A stretch of 24,337 bases of DNA from a virus. The translations under genes and the position numbers were made by a program. The stretch lies in IMG/VR virus record IMGVR_UViG_3300021185_000239, positions 1 through 24,337 of that record. One strand, written 5' to 3'. Positions 7,048 to 22,486 of this stretch are shown here, one piece after another (the first letter of the stretch is position 1; every line of letters begins with the position of its first letter). The notes below the pieces were generated by a model. That model saw only the letters and a program-made list of their open reading frames with translations, was not told where the DNA came from and made no database searches.

Positions 7048-9003
7048 ATGGCCTTTACAAAACCCACTGGAGACCAGATACGGTTCCGCTCCTCTCAGAC
7101 AGGCAACCACACTCTTGATACATATCTGGAGGCCACTGAGAAGGGCGGCCGTCCTCTATCTGCTCTCCTAGACGACATCTTCGATGCCAACGGCAACGTA
7201 GACGCTGGCTTTGTTACGTTCAATGTAGACGGCACAACAAACGTCCTACAGTATGCGCCGGGTCCACAGGCCGTCGCTGGTTCGTTTATTGATACGAATA
7301 CATTTCTTTTTCGGCTCCGAGGCAACTGGGCGCAAGACATTGATTACAAGCGGCTCGACCTAGTAACCCACAACAACAATCTTTACATATCCAACGCAGA
7401 CCACAACTCAGGTAGCACAGGTGTATTCCTAGACACAGCCACCAACTGGCAAGTTGTATCTGCGGCCGACACACTTATTCAAGCGATTGACGCCAAGGCC
7501 GACGAGTTGGAAGCAACTAAGTCGGAGACTTACTTCCACGGGTTTGAGCGTTCCGCAGACGGCGAACTCAAGTGGACGACTGGTCCGGGTCCAACAACTG
7601 TTTCCACATACAGCGGTTGGGAAAACCGTGACCCTCGCTCTGAGTACCCACGCATCCAGCGCATACCTTGTGCAATTACCACTAGGATTGATGTCCCACC
7701 AAGCGCAGTCCCAATAAATAGAGATGCAGACTCATCGGCAAGCTGGGGCATGACAACCCCAACGGCTGTACCAAGTTGGTGGACTGGAACTATTGGCCAA
7801 ATCATCTCCAACCCTGTCTTCGCTGGACAGATTGAGATTCCGTACCTTCCTCTCAACAGCCGTTGGAGTTACGTTGTAAGCCAGTATCTTGCCTACAACG
7901 CTGGCACAACAGACAGGAATGTTTGCTTCACCTTGCAAAGCGTGGATGAACCTTTATTTCTTATGTTCGCCAACCAGAACTCACGCGGCGTTGATAATCA
8001 AACAACCATGAACTCTACTATCTTGTTCTCAGAGGGCGCTGGCTGGACTTATCATCAAGGCGGCAGATACACATATAATAAGTATGTTGATAGCTCTAGT
8101 TCTGTGTTTATCAATAGCCCTTCTCAAATCCCTGTTGGGCGTAACCGTAAGTTCAACATGTACTTCCACCGCCAGAATAACTCTTATACTTCCGACAATG
8201 GTACGATAGAGATACGCGGCGCGAATATGCCTACGCTTTGGGAGTTCCAGATTGAAGACTTGGACTACGACCTTCCGCATCCGTCGACTTATTATGTAAA
8301 CAACATTGAGAAGACTCTTAGCTGGAACAGGAACTACCAAAACTTCCAGCAGATAGACCCTAATGTTGCAGGCGACTCTACTTCAATAAGAGCGTTTGAC
8401 CATTACGATGTACCTAACCTTGCCAAGAACGCTTCCATTACAAACGACTTCACCAACAAAGAGATTGAGCATTACACAGATGCTTATGAAGTTCAGCGTT
8501 TGGGTGGCTCAGATGAGCAATATTACTTTGCCAGTGACGGACACCTAAAGGTCAAGCTGGGCGAACACAGATACCCACGCTTTGAAGTTAGCCTTCAAGC
8601 CGAGTACGTCCCTAACTCTAATAGCCCCGGTCAACCAAGTAATGCCTACAACATAGCTGTCTTTGCATTAAACGAAACAAAGCAAAAGACCATTACACTT
8701 GTTCGCGGGCATATCTACGACTTTGAATACACAACAAGTTTGGATGACATGACTTGGGACGACCCAGCCCAGCGGCCGACGGTTAAGTTCCGCTTCTCTG
8801 AGGTGGCGGACGGCATTCATGGGACAGACGCTAACGGAGCCACAGGGACAACTTATTTGTCTGACGTCACTCTAAACGCGACTGGAAGTGTTAGCCGCAT
8901 CAAGGTGACAGCAAGCACTCCTGACACTCTGTATTATTTCGCCGACCCTGTTGCTGGTATCGGCGGGACAATAAACGTCGTCGACGAAGACGCTAACCCG
9001 TAG
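7048..9003 (+). CDS. Modular tail fibre / virion-surface protein A (651 aa)
   Basis: Three parts are visible. Residues about 1-65 form an N-terminal module (TLDTYLEATEKGGRPLSALL then DDIFDANGNVDAGFVTFNVD) also present at the start of the 612-aa protein at 18792. Residues about 87-138 form one W..D..Y...D.V...N..Y.S module like those in the next two fibres. A long beta-rich region rich in Asn, Thr and Tyr follows. The last 115 residues resemble a cupredoxin-like fold of marine phage fibres (FRFSEVADGIHG, then LYYFADPVAGIGG), but the Cys/His/Met copper ligands are missing. A receptor-binding or fibre-base role is inferred from modules and context; it could instead be a head decoration protein. 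An AAGGA precedes the ATG. Confidence 0.75.
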   Translation: MAFTKPTGDQIRFRSSQTGNHTLDTYLEATEKGGRPLSALLDDIFDANGNVDAGFVTFNVDGTTNVLQYAPGPQAVAGSFIDTNTFLFRLRGNWAQDIDYKRLDLVTHNNNLYISNADHNSGSTGVFLDTATNWQVVSAADTLIQAIDAKADELEATKSETYFHGFERSADGELKWTTGPGPTTVSTYSGWENRDPRSEYPRIQRIPCAITTRIDVPPSAVPINRDADSSASWGMTTPTAVPSWWTGTIGQIISNPVFAGQIEIPYLPLNSRWSYVVSQYLAYNAGTTDRNVCFTLQSVDEPLFLMFANQNSRGVDNQTTMNSTILFSEGAGWTYHQGGRYTYNKYVDSSSSVFINSPSQIPVGRNRKFNMYFHRQNNSYTSDNGTIEIRGANMPTLWEFQIEDLDYDLPHPSTYYVNNIEKTLSWNRNYQNFQQIDPNVAGDSTSIRAFDHYDVPNLAKNASITNDFTNKEIEHYTDAYEVQRLGGSDEQYYFASDGHLKVKLGEHRYPRFEVSLQAEYVPNSNSPGQPSNAYNIAVFALNETKQKTITLVRGHIYDFEYTTSLDDMTWDDPAQRPTVKFRFSEVADGIHGTDANGATGTTYLSDVTLNATGSVSRIKVTASTPDTLYYFADPVAGIGGTINVVDEDANP

Positions 9004-9011
9004 GAGATATT

Positions 9012-10115
9012 ATGGCACTTCTCGACTTAGGAAAATTCAGATTTAACTGGGCAGGCGTATGGAACGCATCGGCCAACTACACTAAGGATGATGTAGTTGA
9101 ACGCAATGGCGCGTCATACATAGCCGTTACCAATAACTTCAGCCGCCCCCCAGAAAACTTCCCCGCCGACTGGGACAGGATGGCGCAAGGCTTCGCCTAT
9201 CGCGGTGCGTGGGATGCCCAGCGTGGGTATGCCATGGGGGATATGGTTAAGTACAAAAACACCATTTGGGTAGCCGACCAAACCCAATCTTGGGCGACTG
9301 GCGACGCCGACCTTACTGTCCCGACAACCGACCCCTTTAATTGGAGTGAAGTTATAAACAGCTTCAACTACGCTGGTGACTGGGACGCCACCACACAGTA
9401 TGAAAAGTACGACATAGTCAAATACAACGACAACTTATATCTCGCCGCATCGCGTCCCTTCAGTGTCGGCAATGCTTATGGCCCCACGACTTCTGGTTGG
9501 GACGAACTGATGAATGGCTACTCTGTAAACTCAGGGCAGTTCGGCATCTTGGACGCACAGACCCAACTGACAGTGAACGGTGGGGCAGGCAACTCCACAG
9601 GCTTTGAAGTCAACTCAACTGACATTGTAGTTCACGGCGGCGGCCGATACCTCGGCGACGACTGGGGCGCTGGTACAGTCGTAAACTTTGAAAGAACTTA
9701 CAACGGCGCTAACCGCACAACTCAGACAGACCGTATTTATGAAGAGGCTTTGCCAGCATACACCTACGTCAGCGACGCAAACGGCCTAGTCGTCAACATC
9801 CATTACCACGGCAGGGCGCGGCACGACAACGGAAATATGGGCTTTGAGATGGTGGTTCAGTACAGAGATTCCACCAGCACATGGACTAACTTAGAAGAGC
9901 CACGTCGGCATCATAATTACATCTACGACGGTGGTGCCAACTGGTATATAGAAGCGTCTGCTTGGACTTCTGCATACCTTGATGACCGTTCCAATTATCT
10001 AAATGCCAGCGGCGAATTAGAACTCCGTCTTTACCTATACCACACTGGCGGCACAACTGATGACCAGTTGTATCTTTTCAGCACCGTCGTTGAGTACTGG
10101 GAGGTCACACGATGA
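9012..10115 (+). CDS. Tail fibre protein B with three W/Y/D repeat modules (367 aa)
   Basis: The N-terminus MALLDLGKFRFNWAGVW is paralogous to that of the 823-aa protein (MPIIDLGKLKFHWAGSW). Three tandem modules of about 50 residues follow, beginning near residues 10, 58 and 115: each reads W/F-x-G-x-W-x4-5-Y-x3-D-x-V/M...N..Y/W-x-A and ends with a Trp. They resemble carbohydrate-binding CBM5/12-like modules common in marine phage fibres. The C-terminal 190 residues are a unique beta-rich domain with many His and Tyr, likely the receptor-recognising tip. AGGAGATATT precedes the ATG, and the stop overlaps the start of its assembly chaperone. Likely a trimeric fibre; the sugar target is unknown. 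Confidence 0.8.
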   Translation: MALLDLGKFRFNWAGVWNASANYTKDDVVERNGASYIAVTNNFSRPPENFPADWDRMAQGFAYRGAWDAQRGYAMGDMVKYKNTIWVADQTQSWATGDADLTVPTTDPFNWSEVINSFNYAGDWDATTQYEKYDIVKYNDNLYLAASRPFSVGNAYGPTTSGWDELMNGYSVNSGQFGILDAQTQLTVNGGAGNSTGFEVNSTDIVVHGGGRYLGDDWGAGTVVNFERTYNGANRTTQTDRIYEEALPAYTYVSDANGLVVNIHYHGRARHDNGNMGFEMVVQYRDSTSTWTNLEEPRRHHNYIYDGGANWYIEASAWTSAYLDDRSNYLNASGELELRLYLYHTGGTTDDQLYLFSTVVEYWEVTR

Positions 10116-10474
10116 ATCCTAATTTTGAAAAATATTCTCTGGCTCTTGCGAAGCACTGTAAGGACACAGGCTTTGAATATAAATGCCTCCGCACTGAAAC
10201 GGACGGCACAACAGTTATTGTTTCTGTTGATGGCACAGAAATGTCCCCCGACTTCTTGGACGCCATTACAGATGAGGCGGTGACTGAGGAGCGCTGGAAA
10301 GAGGTGAGAGCCACCCGCAACGGGAAAATGCGTTCTTCTGACTGGACACAGGGCGCTGATAGCCCATTAACAAGCTCTCAAAAATCAAGTTGGCGCACCT
10401 ACAGACAAGCGTTGAGAGACATCACTGACCAAGGCGACCCCTTAAACATTAACTGGCCAAGCCCCCCAGCATGA
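10112..10474 (+). CDS. Tail fibre assembly chaperone 1 (120 aa)
   Basis: The C-terminal half carries the signature of the phage tail assembly chaperone family: RATRNGKMRSSDWTQGAD, then a WRTYRQALRDI segment and a WPSPP ending (pattern R...L..SDWT...D......W..YR.aLRDI......WP..P). Such proteins help trimerisation or attachment of the fibre encoded just upstream. The N-terminal 60 residues are less conserved and may recognise the fibre. The ATG overlaps the fibre stop (ATGA), with a strong GGAGG seven bases upstream, so stoichiometric coupled synthesis is likely. A paralogue of 89 aa follows the 823-aa fibre, making this one of two fibre-chaperone cassettes. Confidence 0.85.
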   Translation: MNPNFEKYSLALAKHCKDTGFEYKCLRTETDGTTVIVSVDGTEMSPDFLDAITDEAVTEERWKEVRATRNGKMRSSDWTQGADSPLTSSQKSSWRTYRQALRDITDQGDPLNINWPSPPA

Positions 10475-10534: not shown

Positions 10535-13006
10535 ATGCCAATAATTGACTTAGGTAAGCTAAAATTCCACTGGGCTGGTAGCTGGTCGAATGTAAATAAC
10601 TACGAGAAGGACGACGTCGTTCTGCATAGACAGCAGTCGTGGGTTGGCCTTGGCGACAGTTATAATCAATCGCCAGAAGACGGAAGCACCTACTGGGAGC
10701 GTATGACTGGCGGCATGAACTTCAAAGGAAACTTTGACGTTGCTGAGCAATACTACCGCAACGACATGGTCAAGCATGGCAATGCTGTTTACATAGCAAT
10801 TATTGACAAGCCAACATTCGGAACCCAAACATCCGACACAGCGGCTTGGACAGTCATCGGCTCATGGAGCGGTACAGCCGTCACAGAGAACGCTGGCGAT
10901 TTAGTCTATCGTGATGAAAACAATCAGGAAAAACCTCTCCCTGCGAAGATACCGGGCAGAGGCAGGCCGACAGGTCTTACCCCTGACCTCTCCAATATGT
11001 CTTACAGTCGAAGTGTTGGCATGCAACACAAGCTAAAGTTAAATCATAGCGCTGACAACGAGATAGAGATTGAGACACCAAACGTATCTCATAACTTCAA
11101 AGTGACACTTGACGATAACGACAACCCTACTGGCTACCTATTCTATAGGGAGTTGAAGGGTGCTTCAGCAGACTACACGACTGAGTACGAAGTTCGTTGG
11201 AACGGCACAGACAATAAGTTTGAAATGCGTGAGAAGCTCCCACAGCCTGCGCCGACTACCACGACTTATGTTGTCACAGTCGCAGATGATGGCGGACAGG
11301 ACAAGTTTAACTTTGGTGCCGACGTAGCTCCAGTAATTACTGTGACCCGTGGTAGCACCTATGTTTTCCAGCAGTTCGCAAGTTCAAACGACACACACCA
11401 AATTGAATTTGCTGACGCGGCTGACGCTGACTACACAACAGGGATAACAACAAGTGGTACTCCCGGCGACGGCTCTGCGCTTACAACCTTTGTTGTGCCG
11501 ATGGATGCACCAGATGCTCTGAAGTACGCCTGTGTTTCGCATGGCAATGCTATGGGCAACACAATCACAGTCGTAGACGCAATCCCTTATGAGCAAAACA
11601 AACGTCTTTCAATGCGTCGCTCTGGACACTTCCGTAGCTCAGACTTCAACTTCCACCGTTTGCGCTTTGACATGTCACACACCACTCTTGCCGACGATGG
11701 CCAAGCAGTAAGCGCTCCAATTCGCCTTCGCTTTGCCAACATCGCAGATGGCAACCACAACCCAGCGGCCACTTATACCGACAGAAGCGCTCTTACAAAC
11801 AATGCGTACTTTGTTCAAAGTGGAACCGCGCCCGCCGACGACCTCACCGAAGAGTTGTATGCAAAGGTCTACACCAATACCCACGATGGCACTTGGTATA
11901 ACAACAGGGTTACTTACTACGGAACACCCGGAACGGACGGAGCTTTTGTAGAAATTTGGCAAGACTACGATGACCACACAGCAACAGACCAAGTATATTA
12001 CTTCGAGCAGTTTAACACTGCCGCTGGTGGTACTGTAGACATTGGCTATGAGCTAATGGGTCTTAACCCTGCCCTTGTTTTGCACAGATGGCATCAGTAT
12101 CAATTTGAAGTATCCACAGTCGGGACTTCAGCGAACCATCCTTTCTACATCAAGAATCAGCAAAGCTCTGGTACTGGAGACCAGATTGCTGGTGTAACCA
12201 ACAACGGCTCTGACGCGGCAACCGTTGCTATGTGGATAGGAAACGACACATCAGTAAACCCTGACACAATGTACTATGTCTCCTCATTCGATAACACAAA
12301 CTTCACAAACTCCATAACACTCACAAACAAAATAGTCGCGCCATCAATTATATACCCTGATAACGTGATACTCTACGACGGAGCTTACCAGTTCTCAGGG
12401 CAAGCAAGCGCGCTAAACCTTTATTGGGATAGGTTCGAGGGATGGCAAGAGTTTAGCAGAATCCAAGTAAAACTAATGGACGGTCAGACTGTAGACGATA
12501 CCGACCAGTCTGTTTATATCCGTTATTACTGGGGTCCGGGCGACGGCAAAACATACACACGCCAAGACGCCAGCTACTATTATGCTTGGCAGGCCGCTCT
12601 AGGAACGACTGCCTCTCAGACTCAGGCTTACGGTAACAACCTCACCTATGCCCAAATTGTTTGGGACACAGGTAGCCAAAATCGTGAGCAATGGAACACA
12701 GAGATTAACATCAATCTAACCCCAAAGGCTCCCGGCAACTTCTATGGTAGCCCATCTCAATCTGGTGGCCAAGACGAGACCTTCTCCGTAACTGGCGCAC
12801 AGCGTTATTATGACGGCACAGATAGGTCTTTTACTTGGGACTGGAAAACTAACGGAACCAGAGACAACACTACTCAATACGACATGAAGGGTAGTGGGCG
12901 TAACAACGCCAACATCGCCGCTGGGAACTATTTTGTGGGCTTTCGTATTTACTCAAACAGCGGGAACATCGCTAACCTAAGTTGGCAAGTAAGAGGACAT
13001 CGCTAA
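10535..13006 (+). CDS. Large tail fibre protein C with cupredoxin-like domains (823 aa)
   Basis: The N-terminus (residues 1-110) has the DLGK..F.WAG anchor and two W/Y/D modules like fibre B. Residues about 242-350 form a cupredoxin-like domain (YVVTVADDGGQDKFNF, TRGSTYVFQQ, then YACVSHGNAMGNTITVV) with candidate copper ligands His288, Cys333, His336 and Met340. Two further copies, about 395-505 (RFANIADGNH ... YYFEQFNTAAGG) and 506-600 (NPALVLHRWHQYQFEV ... MYYVSSFDN), lack most ligands. The last 200 residues are a Tyr/Asn/Gln-rich beta domain, probably the receptor-binding tip. GAGG seven bases upstream supports the start at 10535. Its TAA overlaps the ATG of its own assembly chaperone. Confidence 0.82.
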   Translation: MPIIDLGKLKFHWAGSWSNVNNYEKDDVVLHRQQSWVGLGDSYNQSPEDGSTYWERMTGGMNFKGNFDVAEQYYRNDMVKHGNAVYIAIIDKPTFGTQTSDTAAWTVIGSWSGTAVTENAGDLVYRDENNQEKPLPAKIPGRGRPTGLTPDLSNMSYSRSVGMQHKLKLNHSADNEIEIETPNVSHNFKVTLDDNDNPTGYLFYRELKGASADYTTEYEVRWNGTDNKFEMREKLPQPAPTTTTYVVTVADDGGQDKFNFGADVAPVITVTRGSTYVFQQFASSNDTHQIEFADAADADYTTGITTSGTPGDGSALTTFVVPMDAPDALKYACVSHGNAMGNTITVVDAIPYEQNKRLSMRRSGHFRSSDFNFHRLRFDMSHTTLADDGQAVSAPIRLRFANIADGNHNPAATYTDRSALTNNAYFVQSGTAPADDLTEELYAKVYTNTHDGTWYNNRVTYYGTPGTDGAFVEIWQDYDDHTATDQVYYFEQFNTAAGGTVDIGYELMGLNPALVLHRWHQYQFEVSTVGTSANHPFYIKNQQSSGTGDQIAGVTNNGSDAATVAMWIGNDTSVNPDTMYYVSSFDNTNFTNSITLTNKIVAPSIIYPDNVILYDGAYQFSGQASALNLYWDRFEGWQEFSRIQVKLMDGQTVDDTDQSVYIRYYWGPGDGKTYTRQDASYYYAWQAALGTTASQTQAYGNNLTYAQIVWDTGSQNREQWNTEININLTPKAPGNFYGSPSQSGGQDETFSVTGAQRYYDGTDRSFTWDWKTNGTRDNTTQYDMKGSGRNNANIAAGNYFVGFRIYSNSGNIANLSWQVRGHR

Positions 13007-13275
13007 TGGCTACTATCACAGTAACAGATGGATGCGGAAACTTTTGGGAAGAGGAGCATACTCCCGACCCAACTCTGCACGCAAAAAACGTAGCGATTGA
13101 CGCACAGACACGCCTCGCATCATCTGATTGGACAATGATTTCTGATGTTGGCCTTACACCATCATGCAAGACCGCGTTTGAAAACTACCGTGCCATCCTC
13201 CGTGGCATAAGACTTGATGGCTCAACCCTCCCTGACTCCGGCTGGCCGGAAGAACCAGCAGTAGAATTTAGCTAG
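13006..13275 (+). CDS. Tail fibre assembly chaperone 2 (89 aa)
   Basis: This is a shorter paralogue of the 120-aa chaperone: it has QTRLASSDWTMISDVGLTP, then FENYRAILRGI and a final SGWPEEP, the same R.LASSDWT..D..L / YR..LR.I / WP..P order. It probably assists folding or assembly of the 823-aa fibre. I chose the ATG at 13006 rather than 13 bases inside the fibre gene upstream (12982), because AAGAGG lies nine bases before it and the start overlaps the fibre TAA (TAATG). The N-terminal part (MATITVTDGCGNFWEEEHT) differs from the first chaperone, which fits specificity for a different fibre. Confidence 0.82.
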   Translation: MATITVTDGCGNFWEEEHTPDPTLHAKNVAIDAQTRLASSDWTMISDVGLTPSCKTAFENYRAILRGIRLDGSTLPDSGWPEEPAVEFS

Positions 13276-16578: not shown

Positions 16579-17298
16579 ATGTCTTACCACGGTTCGTCTT
16601 CATCATCAGGTAGCTCAAGTAGTTCTTCTAGCAGTTCTTCTTCTAGCAGTTCTTCTTCTAGCACCACATACAAGCCGCGCACATATGTCTCAGCGGACAT
16701 CAAAGGCACACGCCCCCAATCTGATGAACCGACTAGAATCGACAACGGTATCGTTGAAGTTGGAGCTATCGACCTAAAAGGCACATTAACCGCCGACATA
16801 GCTCAAGCATCTGACAAGGCTCACCGTGAGCATCAGCAAGAAAAAGACGGCAGAAACAGATATTCTGCAAACAACCCACACCTTAACTCACCCTACTCTT
16901 CTCTTGAGACCTTAGTCTTACAAGCCTTGCGGCGTTACGGCGACATGCACCCCGGAACGGTAGACGGCGAAGTTATGATGATGTTTATCGAATTTGCAAA
17001 CCTCATCATCGAAGACTTGCGTGGGCATCCATACTGGGACAACCCAGAGATAGATTACTACACACACCCGTCAGAGATAAGACAGATACCAGATAACATT
17101 ATGGTGGCTGGCCTTCTGTACCATTACTCAGTGCAACAGCAGTCTAACAAGATTGAGGCTTACGGCCCAATGTACTTCAAGATGATGAACCGTATCCTAT
17201 ACCAAAAGAAATATGGCTCTGGCAAAATTGAGCTTTCTCCGTGGGACAAATCTCAAAGACCAACTGGGGTGCAGGCTTACGACACAAGGAGAAGCTAA
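16579..17298 (+). CDS. Head-tail connector/adaptor-like protein with poly-Ser N-terminus (239 aa)
   Basis: After a low-complexity start (residues 1-28: MSYHGS, then 4 Ser, Gly and 17 Ser) the protein becomes helical: SSLETLVLQALRRYGDMHPG, an FIEFANLIIEDLRGHPYWD helix, an IPDNIMVAGLLYHYSVQQQS helix and MYFKMMNRILYQKKYG. A helical-bundle protein of this size between capsid and tail hub fits the gp4/gp6-type adaptor that binds below the portal. The assignment is from position and fold character, not a specific motif. The serine tract is encoded by two exact 15-bp repeats plus partial copies (16630-16662), so length variation is possible. GGAGG precedes the ATG by 10 bases. Confidence 0.65.
   Translation: MSYHGSSSSSGSSSSSSSSSSSSSSSSSTTYKPRTYVSADIKGTRPQSDEPTRIDNGIVEVGAIDLKGTLTADIAQASDKAHREHQQEKDGRNRYSANNPHLNSPYSSLETLVLQALRRYGDMHPGTVDGEVMMMFIEFANLIIEDLRGHPYWDNPEIDYYTHPSEIRQIPDNIMVAGLLYHYSVQQQSNKIEAYGPMYFKMMNRILYQKKYGSGKIELSPWDKSQRPTGVQAYDTRRS
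16630..16662 (+). repeat. 15-bp tandem repeat encoding Ser
   Basis: AGCAGTTCTTCTTCT occurs twice in a row (16630-16644, 16645-16659) followed by AGC, and a shortened copy precedes it. It encodes most of the 17-Ser run of the connector-like protein while mixing AGC, AGT and TCT codons. Confidence 0.85.
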
Positions 17299-20640: not shown

Positions 20641-21600
20641 ATGAACAAAGGTGTATTCTCTGGGATACCTAGCTTGGATGACGCAAAGCATTACGAAAGT
20701 ATGCGTGGCGGCGACAACCAAATCTCCTACACAGAGACAGGGGATATGGTCATACCGCCAGAAGTACAGCAGGCCAACCCTGCTCTAATGATGGCGGCAA
20801 TCAAGACCTTTCGGGATATGGGCGCAAACCCCAACCAGTACATATCTGGACACCCAGATGGTAGTTATAACCCAAACACGCAAGCCCAAGAGTTTGCTTG
20901 GTATGACGACTTACTAAAAACTGCTGGAGACTACACACAGACTGCGGCTAACTTTGTTGCTAACAACGACTTAGCTAAAGCCGCCCTGACTGGTACTGTT
21001 ACTGCGGCTGGTGCGAAACTAGCTGGCGCTGACACTAAAGGCGCTCTCGCCGCTGGTGCGGGTGCAGGCTTGGGTTACTATGCTGGAGACAAGCTGTCCA
21101 CTGGATTTGATAATCTGAGCAACAACAAGGGCTTCTTTGATTCAAAGCCAGCGACAAACTACACGTCAACTACTGTGGGACAGTCACTAGGCAACTTAGG
21201 CAAGAGCATAAACTACGGTGCGCTGTCTGGCGCGGCTGGCCTTGGTACGGTTGGCTTAGCTATGTTTGGCAAGCCAGAGATGGAAGAAGACCTACAGCTT
21301 GGGAAGACTAAGGCTTTGAAGTTAGCGGCGATAGCGCCGCCGCCTAATTACTTAGATATGCCGGGGAACGAGCAGGCAAACTTATCAGCCACATTACCGC
21401 AAAACCTACCCATAGCTCCTATGACACCATCGGCGTTGGGGCCACAGGGTGTGTCCTTTAAGAAGAAGGTCAAGGACAGAGACACTGGGCGGTTTAGCTA
21501 TGTTGACTCTGATAGTAGCAACGACGCTGGTGCATTCTCACGGTCATTAAACTCTAAAAGCAGGCGCAAAGGTTTTGGAGGCGGCATTATCTTCGCATGA
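20641..21600 (+). CDS. Gly/Ala-rich virion protein, probable internal or ejection protein (319 aa)
   Basis: The N-terminal half contains GDMVIPPEVQQANPALM followed by NPNQYISGHPDG and NPNTQAQEF, a motif block (GD.VIP.eV......Y..g...G..NP.T...EF) that I know from marine phage virion proteins of unknown exact role. The centre has glycine-zipper-like stretches (GALAAGAGAGLGYYAG near residues 134-149 and GALSGAAGLGTVGLAMFG near 198-215) that could insert into membranes. The C-terminus is basic with RRKGFGGG. Position between fibre and the gp13-like pair suggests an ejected core protein. The stop overlaps the next ATG. Confidence 0.65.
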   Translation: MNKGVFSGIPSLDDAKHYESMRGGDNQISYTETGDMVIPPEVQQANPALMMAAIKTFRDMGANPNQYISGHPDGSYNPNTQAQEFAWYDDLLKTAGDYTQTAANFVANNDLAKAALTGTVTAAGAKLAGADTKGALAAGAGAGLGYYAGDKLSTGFDNLSNNKGFFDSKPATNYTSTTVGQSLGNLGKSINYGALSGAAGLGTVGLAMFGKPEMEEDLQLGKTKALKLAAIAPPPNYLDMPGNEQANLSATLPQNLPIAPMTPSALGPQGVSFKKKVKDRDTGRFSYVDSDSSNDAGAFSRSLNSKSRRKGFGGGIIFA

Positions 21601-22040
21601 TACGCTACGCTACTGAGGACGATATCCAAGCCTCTGTTGAGATTGGCTTTAAGTTTATAAAGGATGGTTACTACAGCCACCTTCCAGTCGACAGAGATAT
21701 GATGCAAGGCCATGCCACTCGTGCTTTAGAAAGTGAGTGGTGGCTTTACCTAGTCGACGAGATTGACGGGAGCCAAGCTGGGTTCTTTTCTGCACATATT
21801 GAAGAAACATTGTTTGGCCCCGGACGCATCGCAATCCAAGACTTAATGTTTATCTTGCCACAGTACAGACGTGGGGCAAGCGCACTAAAGTTCTTGCGCG
21901 AGTTCGAGAAGTGGTCTGTCAGCAAAGATTGCTCCAACCTTTACTTTGCGCCAAGCGTACATGTCGACTCTAGGTTTGACACTTTGGCCAAGCGGGTTGG
22001 CTTTGAGTACATCGGGCCACAATATGGGAAGAAGCTATGA
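21597..22040 (+). CDS. GNAT-fold protein, T7 gp13-like, copy 1 (147 aa)
   Basis: The product starts MIRYATEDDIQASVEIGFKF and runs through IQDLMFILPQYRRGASALKF to KRVGFEYIGPQYGKK. This is the order of an N-acetyltransferase fold: the R.A...D start, a central beta4 strand with 'i.pqyRrg.sa' in place of the acetyl-CoA-binding Q/RxxGxG/A loop, and a 'GF' C-terminal strand. The Phage T7 gp13 family of internal virion proteins has this fold and lies beside ejection genes, so a structural or morphogenetic role is more likely than drug or antibiotic acetylation. The stop overlaps the ATG of a second, paralogous copy. Confidence 0.75.
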   Translation: MIRYATEDDIQASVEIGFKFIKDGYYSHLPVDRDMMQGHATRALESEWWLYLVDEIDGSQAGFFSAHIEETLFGPGRIAIQDLMFILPQYRRGASALKFLREFEKWSVSKDCSNLYFAPSVHVDSRFDTLAKRVGFEYIGPQYGKKL

Positions 22041-22486
22041 TACGTCAGGCCACCCAAGATGACAAAGAACGTGTCATGAACCTAGGCTGGCTCATGTGGA
22101 AGCAAAGCACAGTTTACGAGAAGTTCGGCTGGAGTTGGGACAAGGTCAGCAATATGTTTGACCGATACTGTCAGCAACCAGAAAAGCTCATGTTAGTCGT
22201 AGAGAAAGATGACAACATCATTGGTATGCTTTTAGCAAACACCCACAGCCAATTCTACACAAATGCCAAAGTCGCCAGCCAACAGATATTTTTTATACAC
22301 CCTCTGCATCGTGGTGGTTCAGCCGCGTTACGACTTATGAAGAAGTTTGAGAGCTTTGGACGCCATAACGATTGTGACTTTCTTAACTTCAGCCAAAGCG
22401 TACAAGGCGTGGACGACAGATGGGACAAGTTCTGCAAGAATCTAGGATATACTCATGTAGGCAACACTTATTTCAAGGACTTGTAA
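22037..22486 (+). CDS. GNAT-fold protein, T7 gp13-like, copy 2 (149 aa)
   Basis: This tandem paralogue begins MIRQATQDDKERVMNLGWLM and has QQIFFIHPLHRGGSAALRLM and CKNLGYTHVGNTYFKDL, in the same order as its upstream neighbour. The 'hPlhRGGsAAlrL' loop retains an R-G-G-S-A acetyl-CoA-like phosphate loop, arguably better than copy 1 (R-R-G-A-S-A), so at least this copy may bind acetyl-CoA. Identity between copies is low by eye, meaning an old duplication. ATGA overlap on the left and a one-base gap on the right place it in the same translational chain as the ejection-type proteins. Confidence 0.75.
   Translation: MIRQATQDDKERVMNLGWLMWKQSTVYEKFGWSWDKVSNMFDRYCQQPEKLMLVVEKDDNIIGMLLANTHSQFYTNAKVASQQIFFIHPLHRGGSAALRLMKKFESFGRHNDCDFLNFSQSVQGVDDRWDKFCKNLGYTHVGNTYFKDL

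Follow-up and report, generated by a model that had tools for sequence, protein, structure and literature searches.

Blue-copper sites are known in cells as electron carriers and enzyme centres. In the small cupredoxins (plastocyanin, amicyanin and pseudoazurin; Pfam PF00127, Copper-bind) the ligands follow the order His...Cys-x2-His-Met, and in plastocyanin and azurin the first His is followed by Asn. In multicopper oxidases, Pro follows the corresponding His (His-Pro). Metal sites have also been proposed in phage tail fibres, with iron as the metal and HxH motifs as the sites, in T4 gp37 and alterophage R22Y (PMC11705849). No description of a phage virion with a cupredoxin or copper site came to light in a literature search that covered only a minority of subscription journals and no bioRxiv preprints.

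The window analysed here, a stretch of 24,337 nucleotides, is a fragment of an IMG/VR virus (record IMGVR_UViG_3300021185_000239, positions 1 to 24,337). It encodes an 823-aa protein (10535-13006, + strand), a real ORF that matches PHROG tail-fibre and baseplate-connector families, in agreement with the tail-fibre location given in a preliminary description of this DNA. Residues 242-350 (11258-11584, + strand) contain a full His-Cys-His-Met set. Read from the ORF translation, its members are His288 (first His ligand position; codon 11396-11398), Cys333 (Cys ligand position; 11531-11533), His336 (second His ligand position; 11540-11542) and Met340 (axial Met position; 11552-11554), all on the + strand and all where the preliminary description had put them, with a ligand-loop motif of C-x2-H-x3-M. 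Cys333 is the sole cysteine among the 823 fibre residues. The HxH iron fibres (T4 gp37, R22Y) likewise have a proposed metal site in a tail fibre, but their fold and ligands differ from those seen here (PMC11705849). An HxH iron-binding fibre was rejected as a candidate, since the 823 residues contain no His-x-His motif.

Structure prediction supports the cupredoxin-like fold that had been suggested from strand order. An AlphaFold2 model of residues 238-350, built with 34 sequences, has nine strands and a mean pLDDT of 93.8; it is a predicted, not a solved, structure. By DSSP, and in model numbering, His51 lies just before strand 53-57, Cys96 ends the penultimate strand (91-96), and His99 and Met103 come after it. 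The predicted ligand positions and topology (first His, Cys, His, Met) match the plastocyanin order. The preliminary description had named clustering of the four residues in an overlay on plastocyanin as support, and the agreement is at the level of topology only, within the predicted model. As modelled, the domain is a cupredoxin fold (Greek-key beta-sandwich, about eight strands), and its residue set and strand placement are those of a putative type-1 (blue) copper site.

The best PDB match of the model is the N-terminal cupredoxin domain of Hyphomicrobium denitrificans nitrite reductase (2dv6, 6tfo; VIA Z 10.2, rmsd 2.5, 101 residues). Further matches include two-domain (small) laccases (Z about 9.5) and plastocyanin, and the Foldseek probability to cupredoxins is 1.00. 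Although the nitrite reductase domain and the laccases are the best structural matches, identity to them is only 10-17%, and the further copper centres of these enzymes are absent from the fibre domain. Among viral models, the domain matches marine cyanophage fibres at a TM of about 0.9.

Compared with the small cupredoxins, the fibre domain shares the predicted fold, the ligand order and the topology. It differs in its C-x2-H-x3-M spacing, in having Gln (or, in relatives, Pro) in place of Asn after the first His, and in its setting within a viral fibre, where no redox partner was seen. Neither the fibre nor its domain matched PF00127 above the gathering cut-off, and only 4 of 34 relatives matched this family (best E 0.036). 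The best Pfam match for 11 of the 34 relatives was PF25489, the At5g54830-like domain, a weak match (best E 5.7e-5) that was not obtained for the window's own domain. Pfam and NCBIfam did not recognise the domain in this analysis, and a PDB sequence search with the single sequence or the 34-sequence profile returned nothing convincing. When the family profile was compared with genuine plastocyanin-family domains, taken from genomes by PF00127, the His, Cys and His columns were aligned at E 1.1e-6 (reversed and column-shuffled controls, 0.08-0.95). With the ligand columns masked, the score fell to background. The sequence link to plastocyanins therefore rests on the ligand columns, with none shown beyond the site. 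Sequence supports a shared site, and the predicted structure supports a shared fold.

A profile match was obtained to PHROG 677 (cyanophage gp9 baseplate wedge tail fibre connector, T4-GC 398), with an E-value of 4.8e-16 for the whole protein and a best stretch in which residues 239-349 align with profile positions 302-411 of 412. The C-terminal 110 positions of this profile are the same domain, with a complete ligand set. In the one gp9 tested (P-SSM4), the N-terminus is like T4 gp9/gp10; the 823-aa protein, by contrast, is a fibre in its own right and belongs to a CRP-810-type phage. The gp9 proteins of T4-like cyanophages themselves end in such a cupredoxin domain, with all four ligands.

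The four residues are strongly conserved among relatives of the domain. They are invariant in all 59 distinct sequences of a first set, which was fetched partly by the pattern HGNAMGNT and so by a pattern containing the His and the Met. A second set was fetched by patterns from the N-terminal 90 residues only, so that the search did not select for Cys, His336 or Met, and here too each of the four is invariant (75/75 distinct relatives). The same holds for an alignment of 88 sequences (88/88), where conservation reaches 97% or more at just ten positions: the four ligands, Tyr276, Phe278, Tyr331 and three Gly. Finally, a ligand-masked HMM, trained on intact copies and therefore carrying a residual bias, found 57 non-redundant copies with good coverage, 52 of them intact (51 read H-C-H-M directly, and one more does so once a gap misplaced by one residue is corrected); the remaining five are either degenerate or of doubtful status. 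The N-terminal-pattern set and the masked HMM speak against the conservation being a product of the search patterns, with the residual bias remaining. Free variation of homologues at these positions, which according to the preliminary description would speak against the site, was not seen, and its reading of a complete type-1 ligand set is borne out by the residues present and their invariance.

Around the ligands, the family shows limited variation. Among 194 distinct copies, the loop spacing is C-x2-H-x3-M in 123 and the amicyanin spacing, C-x2-H-x2-M, in 71, while 177 have Pro directly after the first His (the 823-aa fibre has Gln). Apart from the ligand, the domain-bearing proteins contain few cysteines (2.7 per 1000 residues); of 84 non-redundant ORFs with the domain, 39 have no Cys but the ligand. 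A chance motif was rejected on the grounds of invariance, fold and the single Cys.

Copies without a complete site also occur, two of them in this window. Within the 823-aa fibre, the ligand-masked HMM detected a second, degenerate domain at residues about 510-596 (12062-12322, + strand), in which the His-Pro is kept and the Cys, His and Met are lost. Its model is of low confidence (pLDDT 68), with rusticyanin as the best match, and we call this domain cupredoxin-like only. The other copy is the C-terminal domain of the neighbouring ORF 7048-9003 (8653-8982, + strand; ligand-masked HMM E 3.6e-5), which keeps none of the four ligands and is assigned from sequence only. Ligand-free copies are also present in the baseplate wedge protein adjoining gp9 in T4-like cyanophages. 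One further cyanophage stretch reads YYYCKNHGSYH and has no Met. Since domains lacking Cys, His and Met exist, the fold can probably exist without the site, and these residues would not be a requirement of the fold as such. Copies that retain the site nearly always retain all of it. Together with a fold that is probably possible without the site, this pattern of retention is what would be expected if the residues serve a metal. Intact sites are the rule in this domain family, with ligand-free copies beside them; the intact ligands that the preliminary description singled out are thus present, but they do not make this fibre an exception.

The domain was found in 241 of 50,697 phage records, nearly all named as Synechococcus, Prochlorococcus, Methylophilales or Pelagibacter phages. 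It is found repeatedly in marine phages, both in fibres and in gp9 connectors, consistent with an earlier impression that cupredoxin-like domains are common in marine phage fibres, and in S-TIM5 and S-CAM4 the proteins that carry it are annotated as virion structural. The domain also appears in contigs binned as marine bacteria and archaea (Neomarinimicrobiota, Alphaproteobacteria, Flavobacteriaceae and Euryarchaeota); such contigs may come from phages and have been binned with these organisms.

Taken together, the residue set and the predicted model lead us to favour, with moderate confidence, a genuine cupredoxin module at residues 242-350 that most likely binds one copper through the four residues and most likely has a structural use. 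Copper binding is a strong inference; the type-1 nature of the site and a role in stabilisation, rather than in redox chemistry or adhesion, are likewise inferred. One copper ion would be held by His288, Cys333, His336 and Met340 as in type-1 copper domains, and the metal would lock the ligand loop and stiffen this beta-sandwich bead of the fibre. A stiffened bead could help the particle to survive seawater and keep the joint rigid. The module is also used elsewhere, in the fibres of other marine phages and on the fibre side of the cyanophage gp9 baseplate connector, and would thus be a building block of such structures. The preliminary description had offered metal-dependent adhesion and metal piracy as possible uses; that the domain is common to phages of very different hosts and occurs in the gp9 connector points to a general structural or metal-related role rather than to adhesion to a particular host. 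Stabilisation is the most likely of the roles considered and also the least specific. Against the copper reading stands the residue after the first His, which is Gln here and Pro in most copies where plastocyanin and azurin have Asn. It should also be noted that free copper is scarce in the cytoplasm, where the fibre is made; copper may therefore enter the site only once the cell has lysed, or never.

Alternatively, the site may not be for copper: it could hold zinc or another metal, its Cys could form a covalent link, or its conservation could be purely structural. Two points are compatible with such a site: sequence cannot tell one metal from another, and the same fibre has a further copy of the domain that lacks the ligands. 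However, two His, one Cys and one Met that are invariant together, in the places they have in cupredoxins, are the type-1 copper signature; a covalent link would need neither His nor Met, and ligand-free copies point to a fold that can do without these residues. We therefore regard a non-copper site as unlikely.

A more specific use of copper would be in host contact, in the manner of a Trojan horse: the copper-loaded domain would mimic a host copper protein or copper-ligand complex and engage a metal-uptake receptor on the cell surface. The domain does sit in a variable host-recognition cassette (described below), and an analogous idea has been put forward for iron bound by tail-fibre HxH motifs (PMC11705849). 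However, the same domain is found in phages of many unrelated hosts, and its presence in Synechococcus, Prochlorococcus, Methylophilales and Pelagibacter phages argues against one specific receptor. Its position also fits poorly, being in the gp9 connector rather than at the fibre tip in T4-like cyanophages, and mid-fibre here, with about 470 residues C-terminal to it. We know of no receptor for a copper-loaded fibre domain, and copper-dependent host contact seems decidedly improbable.

We consider it very unlikely that the site is a redox switch, in which the copper or the thiolate changes state on host contact or cell exit and alters the conformation of the fibre. His2-Cys-Met is the classical electron-transfer site, and in cyanophage gp9 the domain is at a fibre joint, but cupredoxin sites change shape little on redox, and neither a redox partner domain nor an electron path was seen. 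Least probable of all is a copper sink, by which virions would export copper or protect themselves or the host from its toxicity: the domain is widespread in marine phages of open-ocean hosts, some of which are copper-sensitive, but the few sites on each particle could take up little copper, and among the genes of the window none was identified as handling copper.

If these sites do bind copper as favoured above, abundant viruses of the ocean would have a metal cofactor as part of the machinery by which they recognise hosts, both in fibres and in the gp9 of T4-like cyanophages, and ocean virus particles may carry copper. This would extend the question of metals in tail fibres from iron to copper, and it gives a widespread domain a name, cupredoxin. 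In its strongest form, the idea is that the particles of marine phages are copper proteins, those of T4-like cyanophages by virtue of gp9, that loaded type-1 sites in fibres and joints matter for infection (by redox or copper-dependent host engagement), and that the ocean virus pool acts as a copper ligand; we think this rather unlikely.

The virus, an uncultured marine phage, is a member of the CRP-810-type family. Positions 3269-24164 of the window correspond to Roseobacter phage CRP-810 (TerL 57%, portal 69%, MCP 62%), and no DNA match to isolated phages was found for the window. Gene order is as in CRP-810, except that the single 1252-aa tail fibre of that phage is replaced by a fibre cassette. 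The cassette, all on the + strand, comprises a 651-aa protein (7048-9003), a 367-aa fibre (9012-10115), a tail fibre assembly chaperone (10112-10474; Pfam Phage_tail_APC, E 5.5e-19), the 823-aa fibre and a second tail assembly chaperone (12982-13275; Phage_tail_APC, E 5.2e-7) that overlaps the 3' end of the 823-aa fibre ORF. Since the cassette replaces the single CRP-810 fibre, the cupredoxin domain is part of a variable fibre module; it was not found in the CRP-810 stretch examined.

The N-terminal 114 aa of the 651-aa protein match the CRP-810 tail fibre gp57, suggesting that it is likely the particle-anchored fibre. The 367-aa fibre has CBM5/12-like repeats and shares its first 88 aa with the 823-aa fibre; from its position, the chaperone at 10112-10474 probably belongs to this fibre. 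The C-terminal 470 residues of the 823-aa fibre are known only from two near-identical contigs. Elsewhere in the window, two adjacent acetyltransferase-like ORFs, 31% identical to each other, lie in the structural module (21597-22486) where CRP-810 has one GNAT gene, and a 239-aa ORF (16579-17295) starts with MSYHGSSSSSG followed by a long serine run.
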